This document shows, piece by piece, positions 2,568-50,660 of a DNA stretch of 51,232 nt. Below the pieces are notes generated by a model. The model ran no database searches. It was given only the letters and a program-made list of their open reading frames with translations, and was not told the DNA's origin. Both the position numbers and the translations under genes were made by a program. Source of the stretch: Chromatiaceae bacterium (lineage in GTDB: Bacteria; Pseudomonadota; Gammaproteobacteria; Chromatiales; Chromatiaceae); NCBI GenBank assembly GCA_007693535.1, contig REDK01000176.1, positions 1-51,232 of the forward strand, written 5' to 3'. Every line of letters starts with the position of its first letter. Position 1 is the stretch's first letter.

Positions 2568-2897
2568 ATGCCGCGTTCGTCTCCGTCGCCGATCCGGTTC
2601 AGCCGTCGCCTGCGCCAGGCGCGTCAAGCTGTCGGGATCCCGCCGGATCGCCTCGGTGTGCTGATCGAGCTCGACGAGGCCACCAGCAGCGCGCGGATCA
2701 GTCGCTACGAGACCGGGGTCCACGAGCCGCCGCTGGAGATCGCCGCGAAGCTGGCCGGCGTGCTCGGCGTGCCAATGGCCGACGTCTACTGCGAGGACGA
2801 TCTGTTGGCCGAGCTGATCCTGCGCTACGGGGCGCTCGATGAGGAGGGGCGGGCGCGGGTTCGGGCGTTGGTCGCCGGGTTGGACTTGCCGGCTTGA
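2568..2897 (+). CDS. XRE-family (Cro/C1-type) transcriptional regulator
   Basis: A 109-residue protein with one helix-turn-helix domain: FSRRLRQARQAVGIPPDRLG, then SSARISRYETGVHEPPLEI and AAKLAGVLGVPMADVY, the classic XRE arrangement in which the recognition helix carries S-x-R-I-S-R-Y-E. The C-terminal part (LAELILRYGALDEEGRARVRALV) is a short helical tail. The start at 2568 is preferred because translation from the upstream ATG at 2535 would add residues unlike the family. It is divergent from the KfrA-like remnant. It probably controls a neighbouring accessory gene or itself; the target cannot be told. Confidence 0.85.
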   Translation: MPRSSPSPIRFSRRLRQARQAVGIPPDRLGVLIELDEATSSARISRYETGVHEPPLEIAAKLAGVLGVPMADVYCEDDLLAELILRYGALDEEGRARVRALVAGLDLPA

Positions 2898-3520
2898 GAC
2901 GGATGGCGCCGCCGCGACGGAACCCCGGTCAGGGCCGCGCTGGCCAAGGGGCCTTTCGCTCGCCTCGGCTAGTCCCGGCCACGATCGCCGTGATCCGGCG
3001 ACAGCCCCGTCGTCTCGAAGTCGATGACCACGCCGGGTTCCACAGGATGCCCTCCAGGGTTCGAGCCAAGGGTGCGTCCCCCATGGCGACAGCGCGCGGT
3101 GGGGAGCGCGTGACCCGGCCGCGATTTCGCGCACGGGGACCGGGTTCGTTAGACTGGGGCGCAGGCAGGATAGCGCGTCCGCAGGCCCTCGTCCCTCGGT
3201 TCCGTCCCATGGAGACCGGGCAGGTATTTGGCGCGGCGCCGACGATATCGCCCGAATGCAGCGAAGCGGCATCCAGGGCCTGGCGTCAGCCGATCGCTTT
3301 GCGTTGGCCTTGATTGCATTTGCGGAGCCCGCTGGCGCTCTACCAGGGGCGCACGGTGGGGCCGCACGGGCGGGCTGCACGGCCACTGGCTCGAATCCTT
3401 GCCCGGTTCCATCCGCGCGGACAGTTGCACCAGGCCGCGCCAGCGCGCTCGCCCTGCCCCTGTGGTAGACACCCTCCGTTACACTGCCCAGTGTCCGCCG
3501 CTGCACCATCGGACCATTGC
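2898..3520. other. Gene-free stretch upstream of cobI
   Basis: No frame here carries recognisable motifs. It contains a piece (around 3256-3285, beginning atgcagcgaagcggcatcc) of a kind that, from memory, recurs between genes in Chromatiales genomes; I cannot verify that here. No convincing cobalamin riboswitch was found despite the downstream cobalamin genes. Confidence 0.4.
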
Positions 3521-4351
3521 ATGTCAGGCACCCAACTCGCAGCCGCGACCGCGGCTGAACTCATCGCCACCCAACCCGGTCGCCTCATCGGCGTCTCCCT
3601 CGGTCCCGGTGATCCCGATCTGATCACCCGCCGGGCCTTCGCCCGGTTGACCTCGTCGGCACGCTGGGCCTATCCGGTCACCGGACCCGGCGCCCGTTCG
3701 CATGCCCTGGAGATCGCCTGCCGGGCCGGGCTGGCGGTGCCGGCAGACGCCCTGGCCCTGCACTTTCCGATGACCCGCGACCGCGTCGCACTGACAGCCG
3801 CCTGGCAGCAGGCCGCCGCGCATTGCCTGACGGCGCTGGCCGGCGGGCGCGATCTGGCCTTTCTGGTGGAGGGCGATGCGTCGACCTATTCCACCTTCGG
3901 CCATCTGGCCGCGACCCTGCGTGACCTGGCCCCCGGTCTGGCGATCGAGGTGATCCCCGGCGTGACCTCCTTCGCGGCTGCCGCCGCCCGCCTGGCCGAG
4001 CCGCTGGTCAGCGATGCCGGCGTCCTGGCGGTGATCCCGGCCGCCTATGGCATCGAGGTCATCGACCGGCTGCTGGATCAATGCGACACCCTGGTCCTGC
4101 TCAAGGTCAACCCGCTGCTGGATCAGGTGCTGGCCCTGCTGGAGCGGCGTGGCCTCAGCGGCCACGCCCGCTATCTGGAACGTCTAGGCACCGCAGCGGA
4201 GCGGGTGCTGCTAGGGCTGGATGGCCTACACGGCAGCCGGGTGCCCTATCTGTCACTGCTACTGGTCAAGAATCCCGGGCGCCACGCCACCCCGCCGGCC
4301 CCCATGGCGAGCAGCCCCCTGCCCGATCCCCCAACTGGGTCCCCGCGATGA
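3521..4351 (+). CDS. cobI: Precorrin-2/cobalt-factor-II C20-methyltransferase
   Basis: A 276-residue SAM-dependent tetrapyrrole methylase that methylates C20 of the corrin precursor during cobalamin synthesis. The N-terminal G-V-S-L-G-P-G-D-P-D-L-I-T motif is the SAM-binding loop of the family. LAFLVEGDASTYSTF and IEVIPGVTSFAAAAARL are the next two signature blocks, and VLLKVNPLLDQVLALL is typical of CobI/CbiL. Length and block order fit a complete enzyme, with a short proline-rich tail. The start at 3521 places the family N-terminus correctly; an in-frame ATG at 3314 would add unrelated residues. The stop overlaps the next start as ATGA, so cobI and cbiG are coupled. CobI versus CbiL cannot be separated by eye; the cbiG neighbour favours the cobalt-early (anaerobic) route. 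Confidence 0.92.
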   Translation: MSGTQLAAATAAELIATQPGRLIGVSLGPGDPDLITRRAFARLTSSARWAYPVTGPGARSHALEIACRAGLAVPADALALHFPMTRDRVALTAAWQQAAAHCLTALAGGRDLAFLVEGDASTYSTFGHLAATLRDLAPGLAIEVIPGVTSFAAAAARLAEPLVSDAGVLAVIPAAYGIEVIDRLLDQCDTLVLLKVNPLLDQVLALLERRGLSGHARYLERLGTAAERVLLGLDGLHGSRVPYLSLLLVKNPGRHATPPAPMASSPLPDPPTGSPR

Positions 4352-5307
4352 CGGCGGGCACCGCCGCGCAGTCGACCGCCGATGCTGCAGCGGGCGCCAC
4401 GCCGCGCATCGCGATCCTGACCTTGACCCGAGGCGGCCTGTGGCTGGCCCGCACGCGCCTGCAGCCGCTGCTGCCGACGGCCCGGCTGTGGGCACCGCGG
4501 CGGCTGCATATCACCGAATCGGCGGTCGCAGCGGGGATGGGACCCACCCCTGGGTCCATGCCCGAGGCGGCCAGCGGGGCCGCGAGCGGACCGGTCGTCG
4601 ATTGGTTCGATGGCCGCCTCGCCGATCTCGTGGCACGCCTGTTCCCGCATCTGGACGCCCTGATCGGCGTCTGCGCGCTGGGCATCCTGGTGCGCGTCAT
4701 CGCCCCGTTACTGCGCGACAAGCGCCGCGATCCAGCCGTGCTCGCGCTGGACGAGGCCGGACAATTCGTGGTGCCGGTGGTCGGCGGCCATCTGCGCGGG
4801 GCCAATGCCCTGGCCCGGCAGTTGGCCGCCGGACTCGGCACCGCGGCGGACGGCCGCGCTGCCATCGCCGTCATCAGCACCGCCTCGGACGTGCAGGGCA
4901 ACCTGGCCCTGGATCTGCTTGGGCAAGAACTGGGCTGGCAATTGCGTGCCAGCCCGAGCGCCCTGCTGCGAGCCAGCGCCGCGCTGGTCAATGGGGCAGC
5001 GGTCGCCTTGGTGCAGCGCGATGGCAGCCGCGACTGGTGGCACCACCATGCCGGCGGCCGCAGCGGCCCCTTGCCGGCCAACCTGCATTGCCTGGATGAT
5101 CCCGCGGGATTCGTCCCTGGCCGCTATCAGGCGCTGCTCTGGATCGCGCACGAACCCCCGCCGGCCGAACTGGCCGCGCGGCCACCGACAGCCCGCAGCG
5201 GCAGCGCTGATGCCCCCGGCGGCGGCGCTGCCGTGGTGCCCGAGCGCGCACCAACCGGCGCCCCCGCGGCCGGGGTCGCGGTGATCTGGTATCGACCGCC
5301 AGCCTGA
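4348..5307 (+). CDS. cbiG: Cobalt-precorrin-5A hydrolase, lacking the usual C-terminal domain
   Basis: A 319-residue protein. CbiG opens the delta-lactone ring of cobalt-precorrin-5A and releases acetaldehyde. The N-terminal domain block is present: LIGVCALGILVRVIAPLL, then KRRDPAVLALDEAGQFVVP and VVGGHLRGANALARQLA. The middle-domain start (ISTASDVQGNLALDLLGQ) follows. The last part (about residues 200-319) is low in motifs, ends in an alanine- and proline-rich tail and lacks the C-terminal CbiG_C/CobE-like domain. In some genomes that domain is a separate protein or is fused to a methyltransferase. The start is fixed by the ATGA overlap with cobI. A functional enzyme is likely, with the missing domain elsewhere. 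Confidence 0.88.
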   Translation: MTAGTAAQSTADAAAGATPRIAILTLTRGGLWLARTRLQPLLPTARLWAPRRLHITESAVAAGMGPTPGSMPEAASGAASGPVVDWFDGRLADLVARLFPHLDALIGVCALGILVRVIAPLLRDKRRDPAVLALDEAGQFVVPVVGGHLRGANALARQLAAGLGTAADGRAAIAVISTASDVQGNLALDLLGQELGWQLRASPSALLRASAALVNGAAVALVQRDGSRDWWHHHAGGRSGPLPANLHCLDDPAGFVPGRYQALLWIAHEPPPAELAARPPTARSGSADAPGGGAAVVPERAPTGAPAAGVAVIWYRPPA

Positions 5308-5337
5308 ACAGGTCCGTCTCCGCGCTTGACCGCCCCG

Positions 5338-5373
5338 GTGGCCACCCCAGTGACCACCCCAGTAACCACCCCG
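5338..5373. repeat. Three tandem copies of a 12-bp unit
   Basis: Three imperfect copies of a 12-bp unit of the form GTRRCCACCCCA lie just downstream of cbiG. No function is apparent. Confidence 0.5.
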
Positions 5374-42627: not shown

Positions 42628-42918
42628 ATGACCGACGATCAGAGCACGAACCGGATCTGTCTGCTGTGCCACGTGGCCGGCCGGGTGCAGGGGGTGTTCT
42701 TCCGCGCCTCGGCCCGCGAAGAGGCGCAACGCCGCGGCATCACCGGTTATGCCCGCAACCTGCCCGATGGCCGCGTCGAGGTGTTGGCCTGCGGGCCGGC
42801 CGACACGGTGGCAGAGTTGCGCGAATGGCTGCGCCGCGGTCCGCCCGGCGCCGAGGTCACCGGGGTTGCCTGCGAAGTGGAAAGCTACCGGAGCATCACC
42901 GGCTTCAGCACGCACTGA
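42628..42918 (+). CDS. acyP: Acylphosphatase
   Basis: A 96-residue acylphosphatase. It hydrolyses acyl phosphates such as carbamoyl phosphate. Signature blocks: CHVAGRVQGVFFRASAREEA with the catalytic arginine in G-V-F-F-R, then GITGYARNLPDGRVEVLACG with the catalytic asparagine in R-N-L-P-D-G. Later blocks include VAELREWLRRGPPGAEV. Complete and of usual size. It is a lone gene between tex and the cytochrome operon. Confidence 0.93.
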   Translation: MTDDQSTNRICLLCHVAGRVQGVFFRASAREEAQRRGITGYARNLPDGRVEVLACGPADTVAELREWLRRGPPGAEVTGVACEVESYRSITGFSTH

Positions 42919-43118
42919 GTCCCGATCGTGACAGCCCGGATCGCTCCCGTTGAGATCGATCCGGCTGAATCTGGATCTGGTCGGGACCTGGCAGGCCCGG
43001 CGGCATGCTGCATTGATCTGGAGCGGGTGACCGATCGTTGCCGGCGCGCGGTGGCAATCAGACATTGCGCTAGAATGAATGGCGTGGTTGCTGTGATCTG
43101 CTTGCGTCCCGCCGTGCC

Positions 43119-46034
43119 ATGACGTATCGCGCCGAGGCCCCCTATCCGCCGATTGCCGCTGCGGTGACCGCGCCAGGCAGGACCCCGGCCAGCGTTCCTG
43201 CAGGCCGCGGCAATCTCCCGGTGCTGACCCCGGGGCTGCGCCGGCTGCTCGCGCTGGTACTGCTGCTGACCGGCCTGCTGACGATCGACTCGCTGTATCT
43301 GCTCGCCATCAGCCTGGGGGAGCGGGCCACCGGCCGCACGCTGGAAAACCTCTTCTATCTCGACCTGTTCCTGGCCCATCTAGGGCTCGGGCTGCTGCTC
43401 GCAACACTCACCCTGTGGTTCGCTGCCGGCCATTTCCGCCGCGCCCGGTGGCGGCCTAACCGCTACGCCATCGCCGCCGGGCTGCTGCTCTATCTGGCCC
43501 TGCTCGCCCTGTTCGGCTCTGGGCTGCTGCTGACCCGCTTCGGCTTCCTGGAGGTCAATGATGCCCAGGTGCGCGCGACTGCCTACTGGGTGCATGTGCT
43601 GAGCCCGCTGGCGGTGGCCTGGCTCTTCGTGCTGCATCGCCTGGCCGGACCGCGGCTGCGCTGGCGGGCCGGGCTGCGCTGGGCGGGCGCGGCCGTGGTG
43701 CTAGCCCTGCTCGCCCTCGGGGTGCATCTCGCCAGCCCCGGGCCGCCAGCCTTGGTGCCGGCCTGGACGCCGGCGCTGACCCTGGTGCCCGCCGCCGGCC
43801 CGATCCCGGCTGCCCATCTGCAGGACGATGCCACCTGCGGCGAATGCCATGCCGAGATCGCTGCCCGCCATGCCGGCAGCATGCACCGCTTCAGCTCCTT
43901 CAATAACCCGGCCTATCGCTTCGCGGTGGACGAGGCGCGGGCGCGGCTGCTCGCGCGCGATGGCACGGTCACCGCGGCGCGCCTGTGTGCCGCCTGCCAC
44001 GACCCGGTGCCGCTGTTCTCCGGGCGCTTCGATGCACCCGACTACGACCCCGCGGCCGACCCGGCTGGCAGCGCTGGCATCACCTGTCTGGTCTGCCATG
44101 CCATCAGCGCCGTCAACGGCCCGCGCGGCAACGGCGATTACAGCATCGTCGATCCGCCGCGCTATCCGTTTGCCGAGCGCCAGCATCCGCTGCTGCGCTA
44201 TCTCAATCGCCAGCTCATCAAGGCCAAACCGGCCTTCCACCGCCAGACCATGCTCAAACCGCTGCACCGCGAGCCCGAGTTCTGCAGCACCTGCCACAAG
44301 GTTCATCTGCCGACGGCCTTGAACGATTACCGCTGGCTGCGCGGGCAGAACCATTACGACAGCTTCCTGCTGAGCGGGGTCTCCGGGCATCGGGTCGATA
44401 GCTTCGACTACCCGCCCCGGGCTAGCACCGGCTGCAACGATTGCCATATGCCGGCCTATCCGGCTGCCGATCCAGCCGCCCGGCTGCGCACCGCCGACGG
44501 CGCGCGGGCGATCCACGATCACCTGTTTGCGGCCGCCAACACCGGCGTTGCCGCGATGCTCGGCCGCCCTGCCGCCGAGAACGCCGAGCGGGTAGCCATG
44601 CTCGCGCGCGCTGCCAGTGTGGACCTGTTCGGGCTGGTCGAGGATGGCCATATCGAAGGCCGCCTGCTGGCACCGCTGCGCCCACAACTGCCGCTGCTGG
44701 AACCCGGACGCGCCTATCTACTGGAGGTCGTGGTGCGCACCCGTGACATCGGCCATGAGCTGACCCAGGGCACCGCCGACTCGAACGAGGTCTGGCTGGA
44801 GCTGACCGTCAGCGCCGGCGGCCGCCTGCTCGGACGCTCCGGCGCCCGCGATGCCACCGGCGCGGTGGATGACTGGGCCTGGTTCGGCAATGCCTATCTG
44901 CTCGATCGCGCCGGCGAACGCATCGAACGGCGCAATGCCCAGGACATCTTCGTTGCCCTCTACGATCACCAGATCCCGCCCGGCGCGGCGGCCGTCGTGC
45001 ACTATGCCCTGACCCTGCCAGAGGACCTCGCCGCGCCGGTGGAGATCGAGGCCGCGCTGCGCTACCGAAAGTTCGACACCCGTTTCTACCGCCATCTGCG
45101 TGGCTCCGCGTTCAGCGGCAATCCGCTGCCGATCACCACGCTGGCCGAGGATCGTCTTGTATTGCCGGTGGCCGGCATGGCGGACGGGCCGCCCACTGCC
45201 GACCCGAATGGCAGTGATCCGCGCACCGCCGATCACGACCCTCCGCATCCCACCTGGGAACGCTGGAACGACTATGGGATCGGCCTGTTCCGGCAGGGAC
45301 CGCGCGGGCAATCGCGCCAGGCCGAGGCCGCCTTCCGCCAGGTCGAGGCCCTGGCCGCTGGCACGCCACACCCGGCTGGTGCCCAGGGCGCGCTGAACCT
45401 GGCACGGGTGCTGCATCGGGAAGGCCGGCTGGACGCGGCCGCCGCCGCCCTGCAACGGGCCGCCGACCAGGCCGCCCCGCCCTGGGTGCTGGCCTGGCTC
45501 ACCGCGCTGATCGCCCGCGATCAGGGCGACCTGGACCGCGCCATCGACGCCCTCGAGGCCCTGGCCGAGACCCGCTTCCAGGCCGCCCGCGCGCGCGGCT
45601 TCGATTTCAGCCGCGACTATCGCCTGCTCACCGAACTCGGCCGCACCCTCTATGAGCGCGCCCGCCAGGCCCGGGGAGAGACCGAACAGGCGACGCGGAC
45701 AGACTATCTGACCCGTGCCCGCGATCGCCTCCAGCAGGCCCTGGCGCTCGATCCCGAGCACGCTGCCGCCCATCACAACCTCGGCCTGGTGCTGGCCGAC
45801 CTGGGCGATGCCGAAGGCGCCGCCCGCCAGCGCGCGCTGCACGAGCATTACCGCACCGACGACAATGCCGTCGAGCAGGCGGTCACCCGCCATCGCGCCC
45901 GCAACCCGGCTGCTAACCATGCCGCCGAGGTGGTCGCGATCTATCCGTTGCGACCGGACCCGGCAGCCCCGGCGAAGCCGCCCCCGGACCCCGACCGCAC
46001 CGCCACTGCAGAGACCCATCCCAACGCGTCATGA
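43119..46034 (+). CDS. Membrane-anchored pentahaem c-type cytochrome with C-terminal TPR region
   Basis: A 971-residue protein. Five hydrophobic segments (about 40-65, 78-104, 115-139, 154-176, 186-205) carry histidines inside or near helices (H87, H159, H173, H203), so bound haem b is possible but unproven. The periplasmic part has five CXXCH haem c sites at about 240 (CGECH), 290 (CAACH), 323 (CLVCH), 389 (CSTCH) and 439 (CNDCH), with the block LRGQNHYDSFLLSGVSGH between the last two. A beta-rich region follows (500-660), then an alanine-rich TPR-like region (690-920) containing LDPEHAAAHHNLGLVLADLG. It overlaps the CRTAC1-like gene by 4 bp. I do not recognise an assigned function; electron transfer at the membrane is inferred. 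Confidence 0.8.
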   Translation: MTYRAEAPYPPIAAAVTAPGRTPASVPAGRGNLPVLTPGLRRLLALVLLLTGLLTIDSLYLLAISLGERATGRTLENLFYLDLFLAHLGLGLLLATLTLWFAAGHFRRARWRPNRYAIAAGLLLYLALLALFGSGLLLTRFGFLEVNDAQVRATAYWVHVLSPLAVAWLFVLHRLAGPRLRWRAGLRWAGAAVVLALLALGVHLASPGPPALVPAWTPALTLVPAAGPIPAAHLQDDATCGECHAEIAARHAGSMHRFSSFNNPAYRFAVDEARARLLARDGTVTAARLCAACHDPVPLFSGRFDAPDYDPAADPAGSAGITCLVCHAISAVNGPRGNGDYSIVDPPRYPFAERQHPLLRYLNRQLIKAKPAFHRQTMLKPLHREPEFCSTCHKVHLPTALNDYRWLRGQNHYDSFLLSGVSGHRVDSFDYPPRASTGCNDCHMPAYPAADPAARLRTADGARAIHDHLFAAANTGVAAMLGRPAAENAERVAMLARAASVDLFGLVEDGHIEGRLLAPLRPQLPLLEPGRAYLLEVVVRTRDIGHELTQGTADSNEVWLELTVSAGGRLLGRSGARDATGAVDDWAWFGNAYLLDRAGERIERRNAQDIFVALYDHQIPPGAAAVVHYALTLPEDLAAPVEIEAALRYRKFDTRFYRHLRGSAFSGNPLPITTLAEDRLVLPVAGMADGPPTADPNGSDPRTADHDPPHPTWERWNDYGIGLFRQGPRGQSRQAEAAFRQVEALAAGTPHPAGAQGALNLARVLHREGRLDAAAAALQRAADQAAPPWVLAWLTALIARDQGDLDRAIDALEALAETRFQAARARGFDFSRDYRLLTELGRTLYERARQARGETEQATRTDYLTRARDRLQQALALDPEHAAAHHNLGLVLADLGDAEGAARQRALHEHYRTDDNAVEQAVTRHRARNPAANHAAEVVAIYPLRPDPAAPAKPPPDPDRTATAETHPNAS

Positions 46035-47866
46035 TGACCTCAGCCGATCCCCGCCGCGGCGAGACCCGCATCCGCCGAGCCCTGCTTGCCTCGCTCCTGG
46101 GCCTGGTCGCCCTCGCCCTGCTCGTGACCGGTGCCCGCTGGCTGCTGCGCCCAGCGGAGCAGATCCCGGTGCTCGAGGAGGCCGCCATCGCGCCGCTGCT
46201 GCCGGCACCCACCGCAGCCGACCAGCCGCCGCCAGTGGGCTTTACCGACATCACGGTTGCGGCCGGGATCGACTTCGTGCATACCAACGGGGCCTATGGC
46301 GAGCGTCTGATGCCGGAGACCATCGGTAGCGGTGCCGCCTTCTTCGATTACGACCGCGATGGCGACATGGACCTGTTCCTGGTCAACGCGCAGGAATGGG
46401 CCGGACACGAGACCCTGCCGACGCCACCGGTGCAGGCCCTCTATCGCAACGACGGCAGTGGCCGGTTCGAGGACGTCACCGCCGCTGCCGGACTGGACCT
46501 GACCGCCTACGGCATGGGCGTGGCGATCGGCGATTACGACGGCGACGGCTGGGATGATCTGTTCCTGACCACGCTGCACGGCAACCGGCTGTTTCGCAAT
46601 CGCGCCGGTCGCTTCGAAGAGGTCACCGCGGCCGCCGGCGTCGGTGGCGGCGACACCTGGTCGGCCAGCGCGGTCTTCTTCGATTACGACAACGATGGCG
46701 ATCTCGACCTGTTCGTGGTCAATTACGTGCAATGGTCGCGCGCTATCGATCTGGAGATCGACTTCCGCCTGACCGGGCTGGGCCGCGCCTATGGCGCACC
46801 GCTGAACTTCGTCGGCACCCACAACACACTCTGGCGCAATGAGGGCGATGGGCGCTTCACCGATGTCACGGCGACGGCCGGCATCCAGGTCTTCGATCCA
46901 GTCAGCGGCCATCCGGTCGGCAAGGGGCTCGGCGTCATCGCCCTCGATTACGACCACGACGGCTGGCAGGATCTGCTGATCGCCAACGATACGGTGCGCA
47001 ATTTTCTATTCCGCAATCAGGGCAACGGCACCTTCACCGAGACCGCTATCCTCGACGGCATCGCCTACGACCGCAACGGCAAGGCCACCTCGGCCATGGG
47101 CATCGATGCCGCCTGGTTCCGTGACGACGACGAACTGGGCATCGCCGTCGGCAACTTCGCCAATGAGATGGCCTCGCTGTTCGTCACCAGCGGCGGCCGG
47201 CCGCCCTTCGCCGACGAGGCGGTGCTGGAGGGGATGGGACCGGCCTCGCGCATCCCGCTGACGTTCGGCCTGCTGTTCTTCGACTATGATCTGGATGGGC
47301 GCGAGGATCTGCTGCTGGCGAACGGCCATCTGGAGCATGAGATCCATCGCGTCCAGCAGAGCCAGCAGTATGCCCAGCCGCCGCTGCTGTTCTGGAACTG
47401 CGGCAGTGCCTGCCGCGGGCGGTTCATGCCGGTCGCCGAGGGCGGCGATCTGACCCGGCCCCTGGTCGGGCGCGGCGTTGCCTATGCTGACATCGACAGC
47501 GACGGCGACCTCGACCTGCTGATCACCCAGACCGGGCGCCGCCCCGCCCTGCTGCGCAACGATCAACAAACCGGGCATCACTGGTTGCGGGTCGAACTGA
47601 TCGGTCGCGCCCCCAACACCGGCGCCATCGGCGCCCGGCTGACCCTGACCGGCCCTGGCATCCGCCGCATCCGCGAGGTACGCCCAACCCGCGGCTATCT
47701 GTCACAGGTGGAGCGGCCGGTCACCTTCGGCCTCGGGTCGCTGGCGGACCCCGCCGCCCTGCAACTGCACATCCGCTGGCCCGACGGCAGCGAACAGATC
47801 GTGCAGCCAGAGGCGCTGGACCGCCTGCTGCAGATCAGTCAACCCAGTCAGCCCGACCCCGGCTAA
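46031..47866 (+). CDS. FG-GAP/ASPIC-UnbV (CRTAC1-like) membrane-anchored protein
   Basis: A 611-residue protein with an N-terminal transmembrane or signal anchor (about 13-35). Six calcium-binding FG-GAP-type units follow, with FDYDRDGDMDLFLVN, GDYDGDGWDDLFLTT, FDYDNDGDLDLFVVN, LDYDHDGWQDLLIAN, FDYDLDGREDLLLAN and ADIDSDGDLDLLITQ. This is a beta-propeller of the CRTAC1 kind. It ends in an ASPIC/UnbV domain (VRPTRGYLSQVERPVTFGLG then LHIRWPDGSEQIV). The fold predicts an exported, calcium-stabilised, protein-binding scaffold. It overlaps the cytochrome gene by 4 bp. The biochemical role of this family in bacteria is not established to my knowledge. Confidence 0.86.
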   Translation: MMTSADPRRGETRIRRALLASLLGLVALALLVTGARWLLRPAEQIPVLEEAAIAPLLPAPTAADQPPPVGFTDITVAAGIDFVHTNGAYGERLMPETIGSGAAFFDYDRDGDMDLFLVNAQEWAGHETLPTPPVQALYRNDGSGRFEDVTAAAGLDLTAYGMGVAIGDYDGDGWDDLFLTTLHGNRLFRNRAGRFEEVTAAAGVGGGDTWSASAVFFDYDNDGDLDLFVVNYVQWSRAIDLEIDFRLTGLGRAYGAPLNFVGTHNTLWRNEGDGRFTDVTATAGIQVFDPVSGHPVGKGLGVIALDYDHDGWQDLLIANDTVRNFLFRNQGNGTFTETAILDGIAYDRNGKATSAMGIDAAWFRDDDELGIAVGNFANEMASLFVTSGGRPPFADEAVLEGMGPASRIPLTFGLLFFDYDLDGREDLLLANGHLEHEIHRVQQSQQYAQPPLLFWNCGSACRGRFMPVAEGGDLTRPLVGRGVAYADIDSDGDLDLLITQTGRRPALLRNDQQTGHHWLRVELIGRAPNTGAIGARLTLTGPGIRRIREVRPTRGYLSQVERPVTFGLGSLADPAALQLHIRWPDGSEQIVQPEALDRLLQISQPSQPDPG

Positions 47867-47953
47867 GCCGCTTACCCCAGAGACATCCTCCAGCCATCCT
47901 CCAACCCTCGCCCCGGCCATTGCCTTAGCCATCAACCGCGCAGGCCCACTCGC

Positions 47954-49666
47954 ATGACGTTTCGCCGTATCCTTCGTCCTGCCCTCCCCGGCATCGCCCT
48001 CGCCACAGCGCTGGGGGCCGGGCTGACTCTGGACCTCTGGCCGGTCCAGGCGCCCCGCGCCGACAGCCTCGCACAACTGCCGGAGACCTGGCAGACCGCG
48101 CTGGTGCCGATCCCGGAAGTCGATATCAGCGGTGCCGAGCCGCTGATGCAGGAGGCCCTGCGCCAGGCCCGCGCCGAAGTCGCCAAACAACTGGTGGCAC
48201 CGACGCGCGACCCCGCCGCCCTGGCCACCGCCTATGGCCGCCTTGGCGCCTTGTTTCTGCTGCTGGAGGTCGAGGCCCCGGCCGATGCCGCCCTGCGCAA
48301 CGCCACCGCCTTGCAACCGCAAGAGTTCCGCTGGCCCTATTACGCCGGCTATCTCGCCATGCTGGCTGGCAACCTGGACGAGGCAATCGCCTATCTGGAA
48401 CGGGCACGCGCGATCGATCCCAACTATCCAGCGCTCTATATCCGCCTGGGCAAGGTGCGCCTGGATCGCGGCGATCTGGCTACCGCCCGCATCGCCCTGG
48501 AGCGGGTCCGGGACGTCCCCGAGATCCGCGCACCGGCGCATTACTACCTGGGGCAGGTCGCGCTGCTGGAACGCGACTTCGAAGGGGCCATCGCCCTGCT
48601 GCAGGAAGCCCTGAAGGCCAATCCGCAGGCCCGCGAGGTGCACTATCCGCTGGCCCAGGCCTATCGGGCGCTCGGCGACAGCGAGCGCGCCAAGGAGCAT
48701 CTGGCGCGCTTCGAATTGCGCGCCCCGGAGGTGCACGATCCGCTGCTCGATGACCTGCAGCACGCCACCGCTCGCTCGCAGCCGGCCTTCCAGCGCGGGC
48801 TGCATGCGGTACGCAACGGCCACTATGGTCGGGCAGTGGAGGAGTTCGCTGCCGGCTTGGCGGTCGACCCGGACAATGCCGCCGCCCGCGTCAGCTACGC
48901 CCGTGCACTGTTCCTCAATGACCAGTGCGACGCCGCCGAGGCGGCCCTGGCCACGGCCATGGCCACCGATCCGAACTCGGCCCTGGCGCCGTTCCTCCAT
49001 GGCGTGCTGCTCCAGGCCCGGGGCGACCTGCAGGGCGCTGCCGTTGCCTATCGCGACAGCTTGGCGCAGGACCCGCAACACCCCGGCGCCCTGTTCTATC
49101 TGGCCAACCTGGATTTCGCCGCCGGGCGCTTTGCCCTCGCCGCGGTGGGCTACGAGGCGACCCTGCTGGCAGCCCCCGAGACGGCCCCGGCGCGGGTCCT
49201 GGCGCAGGTCGCCGCGCTGCACGCGGGGGTGCCCGAGGCGCGCGTGGCCGAGCGCCTGGAGGCGCGCGTGGCCGAACACCCGGATGATCGTCAGTTACGC
49301 TATGCCCTGGCGCGGTTGCTGGCGGCTGCCGCGACGCCCGAGATGCGCGACCCGGCGCAGGCAATGCGCCTGGCCGCGGGGCTGCTGGTGGAACAGCCGA
49401 TCCCCCCCCACAAACGGGCAGTGGCCCTGGCCGATGCCGCCAACGGCCGCTATCAGGAAGCCACCGCGGCCCTGGAGGCGCTGCTCGCCGGCGCTGGCTG
49501 GCTGGTGCCGCCGGCGGAACGCACGCTGATGGAGCAGGAACTCGCCGCCTATCGCGCGGGACGCCTGCCGCAGCCGGCCTGGCCGCTGGACGATCCCCTG
49601 CTGGCCCCGCCGCCGTTCGATCCCCAGCGCCCGTTTCGCGATTATCCCGCGGCCAATCCCTACTGA
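47954..49666 (+). CDS. Exported tetratricopeptide-repeat protein
   Basis: A 570-residue protein with an N-terminal hydrophobic stretch (about 9-27, PALPGIALATALGAGLTL) that suggests export or a membrane anchor. Multiple TPR units follow from about residue 90 to 450, for example YAGYLAMLAGNLDEAIAYLE with RARAIDPNYPALYIRLGKV, AHYYLGQVALLERDFEGAIA, and LFYLANLDFAAGRFALAAVG. TPR solenoids bind partner proteins. The C-terminal 60 residues are proline-rich. It follows the CRTAC1-like gene by 87 bp on the same strand and probably assembles with the pentahaem cytochrome, which also ends in TPR-like repeats. I do not recognise a named family. Confidence 0.84.
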   Translation: MTFRRILRPALPGIALATALGAGLTLDLWPVQAPRADSLAQLPETWQTALVPIPEVDISGAEPLMQEALRQARAEVAKQLVAPTRDPAALATAYGRLGALFLLLEVEAPADAALRNATALQPQEFRWPYYAGYLAMLAGNLDEAIAYLERARAIDPNYPALYIRLGKVRLDRGDLATARIALERVRDVPEIRAPAHYYLGQVALLERDFEGAIALLQEALKANPQAREVHYPLAQAYRALGDSERAKEHLARFELRAPEVHDPLLDDLQHATARSQPAFQRGLHAVRNGHYGRAVEEFAAGLAVDPDNAAARVSYARALFLNDQCDAAEAALATAMATDPNSALAPFLHGVLLQARGDLQGAAVAYRDSLAQDPQHPGALFYLANLDFAAGRFALAAVGYEATLLAAPETAPARVLAQVAALHAGVPEARVAERLEARVAEHPDDRQLRYALARLLAAAATPEMRDPAQAMRLAAGLLVEQPIPPHKRAVALADAANGRYQEATAALEALLAGAGWLVPPAERTLMEQELAAYRAGRLPQPAWPLDDPLLAPPPFDPQRPFRDYPAANPY

Positions 49667-49730: not shown

Positions 49731-50660
49731 ATGCCCATGCCGTCCAAGACGCTGAAGAGCGGTTGCGTGCAACTGCGCCACCGCCCCGACGACCCCGGTA
49801 ATCGCCGGCAACTGACCGCCGCCGTCGAACAGGCGGCCCGCCAGGGCTGTCGCCTGGTGCTGCTGCCGGAGCTGCATGCCGGGGCCTATTTCTGCCAGAC
49901 CGAGGATCCAGCCCGCTGCGACCTGGCCGAACCGGTACCCGGCCCCACCACCGACTGGCTCGGCAGCCTGGCCCGGGAACTGGACCTGGTGCTGGTGGGA
50001 TCGGTGTTCGAGCGCCGCGCGGCCGGCATCTACCACAACAGCGCGGTCGTGCTCGATAGCGACGGCCATCTGGCCGGGGTCTATCGCAAGATGCACATCC
50101 CGGATGATCCCGGCTTCTACGAGAAGTTCTATTTCACCCCCGGCGACCTCGGCTTCAGCCCGGTGGATACCGCGGCAGGACGGCTCGGGGTCCTGGTGTG
50201 CTGGGACCAATGGTTTCCCGAGGCAGCGCGCCTGATGGCCCTGGCCGGGGCCGAACTGCTGCTCTATCCCACCGCGATCGGCTGGGACCCGGCCGACGAC
50301 CCGGCCGAACAGGCGCGTCAACTCGACGCCTGGATCACCGTGCAGCGCGGGCACGCAATCGCCAACGGCCTACCGCTGCTCGCCTGCAACCGGGTCGGCC
50401 ATGAGGTGGCCGGTCCCGAGTGCGATCTTGGAACCGGTCCCGAAGCCGACGCGGTTGCCGGCGGCATCGCCTTCTGGGGCAACAGCTTCTGCTGCGGCCC
50501 TCAAGGCGAACTCCTCGCCCGCGCCCCAGCCGACGACGAGACCCTGCTGCTGACCGAGATCGACCTCGGCCGCGCCGAGCAGGTCCGGCGCATCTGGCCC
50601 TTCCTGCGCGACCGGCGCATCGATGCCTATGGTGACCTCTTGCGGCGCTGGCGGGATTGA
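49731..50660 (+). CDS. aguB: Carbon-nitrogen hydrolase, N-carbamoylputrescine amidase-like
   Basis: A 309-residue nitrilase-superfamily enzyme with the catalytic Glu-Lys-Cys triad: LVLLPELHAGAYF (Glu), VYRKMHIPDDPGFYEKFYF (Lys), and LGVLVCWDQWFPEAARLMAL (Cys). The segments YFTPGDLGF and LLLYPTAIGWDP with WITVQRGHAIANGLPLLACN match AguB, which converts N-carbamoylputrescine to putrescine in the agmatine route. AguA is not adjacent. The start could be 49731, 49737 or 49743; all are ATG. It is 64 bp after the TPR gene, so it may be carried on the same transcript, though its chemistry is unrelated. Confidence 0.9.
   Translation: MPMPSKTLKSGCVQLRHRPDDPGNRRQLTAAVEQAARQGCRLVLLPELHAGAYFCQTEDPARCDLAEPVPGPTTDWLGSLARELDLVLVGSVFERRAAGIYHNSAVVLDSDGHLAGVYRKMHIPDDPGFYEKFYFTPGDLGFSPVDTAAGRLGVLVCWDQWFPEAARLMALAGAELLLYPTAIGWDPADDPAEQARQLDAWITVQRGHAIANGLPLLACNRVGHEVAGPECDLGTGPEADAVAGGIAFWGNSFCCGPQGELLARAPADDETLLLTEIDLGRAEQVRRIWPFLRDRRIDAYGDLLRRWRD

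Follow-up and report, generated by a model that had tools for sequence, protein, structure and literature searches.

We describe a conserved pair of genes, encoding a multihaem cytochrome and a beta-propeller protein, that is followed in its own lineage by a third gene. The locus lies at positions 43,119 to 49,666 of contig REDK01000176.1 (51,232 nucleotides, hereafter the window), which is one whole contig of the 4.16-Mb draft genome of a Chromatiaceae bacterium (GCA_007693535.1). The arrangement is real, conserved and apparently undescribed, and the parts that it is built from are of known kinds. Its novelty lies in their combination, i.e., a predicted di-haem b domain, a c552-type penta-haem domain and a tetratricopeptide repeat (TPR) region in one chain that keeps its own propeller across phyla. 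Gene 1 (43119-46034, plus strand; 971 aa) encodes this fusion, with an Ig-like domain ahead of the TPR region. Gene 2 (46031-47866, plus strand; 611 aa) encodes its conserved partner, an anchored FG-GAP/UnbV_ASPIC propeller of the CRTAC1 type, and gene 3 (47954-49666, plus strand; 570 aa) encodes the lineage-restricted third member, a TPR protein with an export-like N-terminal segment. Genes 1 and 2 share 4 bp (ATGA at 46031-46034) and 87 bp separate gene 2 from gene 3, the same layout of three successive plus-strand open reading frames (ORFs) as in an earlier, sequence-only reading of this DNA. The five membrane segments, five CXXCH sites and C-terminal TPR region that it attributed to gene 1 were all found again. 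Since gene 1 has full-length homologues, the locus cannot be put down to chance. Nothing on the pair or the trio was found in the open-licence papers searched. In keeping with the earlier statement that the trio lacks an assigned role, no role for it turned up there, nor did a published enzyme assignment for the penta-haem family, which had been named as a result that would tell against the proposal.

The membrane domain of gene 1 (43245-43736, plus strand; residues 43-206) contains five hydrophobic segments, and a structure model of residues 33-215 (pLDDT 88.1) has five helices. In this otherwise variable domain exactly four buried histidines are invariant, His87 (43377-43379), His105 (43431-43433), His159 (43593-43595) and His173 (43635-43637), all four being kept in the alignment in 77/77 homologues that cover the domain. 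They form two pairs on two helices and are, by their pattern, placed for two haems across the membrane. The match rows for the domain were headed by cytochrome b6, and sequence searches with the same domain were unmatched. Judged from sequence and model, the five segments resemble a quinone module of the di-haem b type, so that their presence stands as first described and their reading is revised from that of a plain anchor.

The five CXXCH haem-c sites follow at 43836-43850, 43986-44000, 44085-44099, 44283-44297 and 44433-44447 (plus strand; starts at residues 240, 290, 323, 389 and 439). Their C, C and H columns are filled in 83/83 aligned homologues, including the five rows (L022, L061, L063, L083 and L084) with four strict CXXCH strings only; 11 duplicate loci were left out of this 83-row alignment, as was L016, whose membrane part lies in another frame, from all alignments. 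Behind the haem sites lie an Ig-like beta domain (44589-45182, plus strand; ~residues 491-688), which contains the invariant His546, and the C-terminal TPR region (45255-45953, plus strand; ~residues 713-945). A model of the haem and Ig-like parts (pLDDT 72.8, part of it below 50) matched the fold of Thermochromatium tepidum cytochrome c552 (5ZE8) over 334 residues. This match of the haem part and the next ~200 residues and the four invariant membrane histidines are both new beyond the sequence-only reading; since the outer domain has the c552/PHC fold, its five haem sites stand and its orphan status does not. Among distal-type histidines, H468 and H546 are conserved in 83/83 homologues and H256 and H374 in 82/83. 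H383 and H412 are candidates in the main clade; in the deep clade they are mostly F/L/I and E, respectively, and H412 falls within residues 393-432, where model pLDDT is below 50. Three loci (L065, L083 and L084) encode cytochromes of 695-728 aa that have no TPR tail, keep the four membrane histidines and, with propellers of their own, make up a separate subfamily.

T. tepidum c552 is a free-standing exported protein without a membrane domain. Because of its five-helix N-terminal domain, gene 1 is a domain relative rather than a plain member of the c552/PHC family (PHC: ExtKL, Gsu2801 and the cable-bacterial sPHC and lPHC), with which it shares five CXXCH motifs in the same order and to which it adds the predicted di-haem b domain, the TPR tail and a propeller gene. 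As in gene 1, an Ig-like domain lies behind the haem domain of c552/PHC proteins, and their family is one without a clear role, according to PMC11976967. In two family genomes with weak c552-like matches only (G001 and G003), no such propeller was found at E<=1e-30. We also likened gene 1 to the Geobacter CbcL-type fusions, in which quinone-side b haems and periplasmic c haems are joined in one polypeptide; it differs from CbcL in its c-type domain, five c haems, TPR tail and propeller partner, and the likeness is one of proposed working. Gene 1 exceeds the cut-off for cytochrome c554 (PF13435, 24.1 vs. 20.8 bits; structure 1BVB), but has five CXXCH motifs instead of four haems, is membrane-bound and carries Ig-like and TPR domains. 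An identity as NrfH was rejected (TIGR03153, 21.7 bits vs. a cut-off of 134.2), as was NrfA, since all five motifs end in His and the CXXCK motif of the catalytic haem is lacking.

Gene 2 has an N-terminal hydrophobic segment as its membrane anchor (46079-46135, plus strand; residues 17-35), followed by FG-GAP_3 in five stretches and UnbV_ASPIC, all over their cut-offs, which agrees with its first description as an anchored FG-GAP/UnbV propeller. It matches CRTAC1 (9ETN) at E 1e-15 and shares FG-GAP repeats and UnbV_ASPIC with the CRTAC1/ASPIC-UnbV propellers, but is bacterial and membrane-anchored. Among 29 propellers compared, conserved columns are mostly the Asp, Gly and Asn of FG-GAP loops and none of the proteins contains a CXXCH; because of this conservation and the lack of haem motifs, the propeller probably serves in docking or substrate binding and not as a redox carrier. 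Its hydrophobic stretch is followed in several deep loci by a lipoprotein-like Cys, as judged by eye. PMC12758564 describes a CRTAC1 family gene that adjoins HZS-like genes or lies between them; these clusters likewise place a propeller next to redox proteins, but with another redox set.

A contig scan with gene 1 gave 23 loci, of which L024, a weak partial match, was left out of all counts. The remaining 22 belong to Chromatiaceae, Sedimenticola, other Gammaproteobacteria, several Planctomycetota, one Rhodothermales and one Bryobacterales record, bearing out the scattered homologues in other phyla of which the sequence-only reading spoke. In whole genomes, gene 1 was present in at least 19/147 members of the window's order and at least 3/398 of its phylum (own genome included in both), and in at least 83/294 genomes of the phylum of Alienimonas; these counts are lower bounds, from an E 1e-40 threshold and few scored candidates per genome, and the sets share some members with the contig-scan loci. 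FAD-dependent oxidoreductases of two different families, possible electron donors, lie directly upstream of the homologues in L022 (7335-8951; Rhodothermales) and L009 (7821-8912; Pseudomonadales).

The cytochrome and the propeller are closely tied. A CRTAC1-type gene directly follows gene 1 in 18 of the 19 contig-scan loci with enough downstream sequence, L022 being the exception; L018 was counted with only the propeller's beginning on its contig, and the contigs of L008, L015 and L019 end within ~350 bases. In 18/18 order carriers besides the window's own genome (G000), the propeller shares contig and strand with gene 1 and comes close behind it, and six chosen non-carriers of the order, two of the same genus, had no propeller at E<=1e-30. 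Within the phylum of Alienimonas it lies at most 1.5 kb downstream in 28 of the 30 best loci, L044 and L062 having none within 6 kb; genomes G184 (locus L067) and G247 (locus L068) hold a full-length gene 1 homologue with no propeller within ~6 kb, the genomes beyond that span not being searched. Seventeen weaker, deeper loci were also picked; in 12 of them the propeller comes directly after gene 1, in L082 it lies upstream, and L073 (at a contig end), L078, L079 and L086 showed none. The sequence-only reading had held separate occurrence of the three genes in most genomes to speak against a common system; for cytochrome and propeller, this is not what was seen.

Ten genomes hold 2-13 propellers each, and the copy adjoining gene 1 is the best gene 2 match in 11/14 genomes (the exceptions being G157, at a contig end, G159 and G160). 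A tree of 61 propellers could be labelled for a place 'beside gene 1' with 4 changes, against a shuffle mean of ~20.5-20.8, with 0/500 shuffles as low; L080 was labelled 'not' via an over-long ORF although adjacent, and L023 and L081 were removed by a length filter. The adjoining propellers are clustered, yet do not form one clade. A role for CRTAC1 propellers as general multihaem partners was rejected, since 0/20 neighbourhoods of other copies held a gene 1 homologue and two held a neighbour with at least four CXXCH (L100, a di-haem oxidoreductase, and L101). Since adjoining copies cluster and other copies lie mostly away from haem proteins, the link to gene 1 is specific to a propeller subgroup. 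The L101 neighbour (2620-5349, plus strand; 910 aa) has eight CXXCH motifs, c554-type matches and HEAT and TPR repeats, with two CRTAC1 propellers nearby on the opposite strand; it is another multihaem-solenoid design. Beyond the trio, no convincing recurrent neighbour appeared in the clustered neighbourhoods, which came from a simple ORF caller that also lists antisense frames.

Gene 3 behaves differently, and conservation of the trio as one block across phyla was rejected; the cytochrome-propeller pair alone spans phyla, and gene 3 is lineage-restricted among the examined loci (Planctomycetota genomes were not searched for it). With a hydrophobic segment at residues 10-28 and TPR families over cut-off, gene 3 fits the exported TPR protein first proposed; PHROGs gave four weak matches only, for this TPR gene. 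It adjoins the propeller in 15/18 order carriers, lies elsewhere in one (G134), and is absent from carriers G022 and G050 and from 6/6 non-carriers. Among contig-scan loci, it comes after the propeller in L002 (cut), L003, L004, L006, L007, L011 and L020, and does not in L005, L009, L010, L013, L014 and L017, despite at least 2 kb beyond the propeller. Solenoids also occur in other positions; propeller-HEAT (L082) and propeller-TPR (L083) proteins each adjoin a ~700-aa cytochrome without TPR, and in L023 a TPR-propeller protein overlaps the gene 1 homologue. Since exchange of parts between neighbours is a usual sign of joint working, this swapping suggests that the proteins work together. Of the periplasmic redox complex held together by TPR and propeller parts that was originally envisaged, the periplasm-facing multihaem protein and its conserved propeller partner are borne out, while a physical complex is what gene order and domain fusions would suggest.

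We consider it probable that gene 1 is an inner-membrane electron conduit, whichever way electrons flow; the whole explanation that we prefer, a quinone-linked b/c conduit with a docking propeller and inward flow, we regard as evenly balanced between right and wrong. From the observed gene order, conserved ligands and fold match we infer haem b binding, quinone contact, a physical complex, the direction and a donor. The five-helix domain would hold two b haems, at a p-side pair (H87/H159) and an n-side pair (H105/H173), and would exchange electrons with the quinone pool. The periplasmic part would pack five c haems against the Ig-like domain in a c552/PHC fold, with the TPR solenoid at its end. 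Gene 2, anchored, with aspartate-rich calcium-type FG-GAP loops and without a haem motif, would dock on gene 1 as its obligate partner, and gene 3 would be an additional solenoid in the window's lineage. With the help of propeller and solenoid together, a redox partner or substrate would reach the penta-haem domain. Electrons would pass from a periplasmic donor through the c haems and b haems to quinone, and the flow would be electrogenic. FdnI and HyaC are di-haem b subunits with periplasmic partners and are electrogenic.

As for the quinone, MenB was over cut-off in 91/147 order genomes and in 9/19 gene 1 carriers; MqnC was over cut-off in 0/10 MenB-negative carriers and in neither of two added ones, G000 and G099. 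A requirement for menaquinol was rejected, since 10/19 carriers have neither over cut-off; therefore, ubiquinone is the likely partner in these hosts. The haems of c552 are reportedly low in potential, going by the title of Chen et al., and if the c haems of gene 1 are so too, electrons would run from the periplasm to the quinone pool. We favor this inward direction weakly, at little better than an even chance against that of CbcL.

The same conduit may run in reverse, a possibility to which we give distinctly less credence than to the inward scheme; the b haems would oxidise quinol, and the penta-haem domain would pass electrons on to an acceptor in the periplasm or outside the cell, as in Geobacter CbcL. 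PMC12307469 describes CbcL as an inner-membrane cytochrome of the bc type by which menaquinol is oxidised, and PMC11976967 links the PHC family to ExtKL and the archaeal nanowire cytochrome AvECN. However, menaquinone genes over cut-off are missing in about half of the order carriers, which is host-level data and not a test of the protein, and low-potential haems would not readily be reduced by ubiquinol. In addition, no porin or outer-membrane conduit recurs in the clustered neighbourhoods, where cytochrome, propeller and TPR are the only recurrent families. A bolder proposal, which we hold to be rather doubtful, is a periplasmic oxidoreductase of a new, quinone-coupled class, spread from Planctomycetota to sulfur-oxidising Gammaproteobacteria, with di-haem b and penta-haem c in one chain, one catalytic c haem, and a calcium propeller and interchangeable solenoids that set both the choice of substrate and docking. 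It seems unlikely that the penta-haem domain acts as an enzyme in its own right, with a small substrate bound at one haem that has no distal ligand and the propeller serving as specificity subunit. Four invariant distal-type histidines (H256, H374, H468 and H546) serve five c haems, the fifth-ligand candidates H383 and H412 are lost in the deep clade, and cytochrome c554, whose haem 2 is five-coordinate, is related by profile (E 0.0053); however, the extra conserved histidines of the main clade could ligate the fifth haem, their stretch (393-432) being modeled at low pLDDT. Finally, a haem-free membrane domain that serves simply as anchor or sensor, with gene 1 as a signalling or scaffold protein, is very improbable, since, although haem b is not directly evidenced and the domain is unmatched by sequence, its four buried histidines are invariant in every row that covers it.

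Two further genes flank the locus in the window. A small acylphosphatase-like ORF, recognised by eye, lies upstream of gene 1 (42629-42919, plus strand), and a carbon-nitrogen hydrolase close to N-carbamoylputrescine amidase (49731-50660, plus strand; TIGR03381, 281.4 bits vs. a cut-off of 410.25) starts 64 bp past gene 3 and is no recurrent neighbour in the clustered gene 1 neighbourhoods.

If the preferred explanation, a quinone-linked conduit with a docking propeller, is true, it would add to bacterial bioenergetics a quinone-linked b-c conduit with a dedicated non-haem partner and would account for a CRTAC1-type propeller being kept beside a cytochrome across phyla. It would also give the penta-haem c552/PHC family, which PMC11976967 presents as one without a clear role, a membrane context in which its role could be tested.
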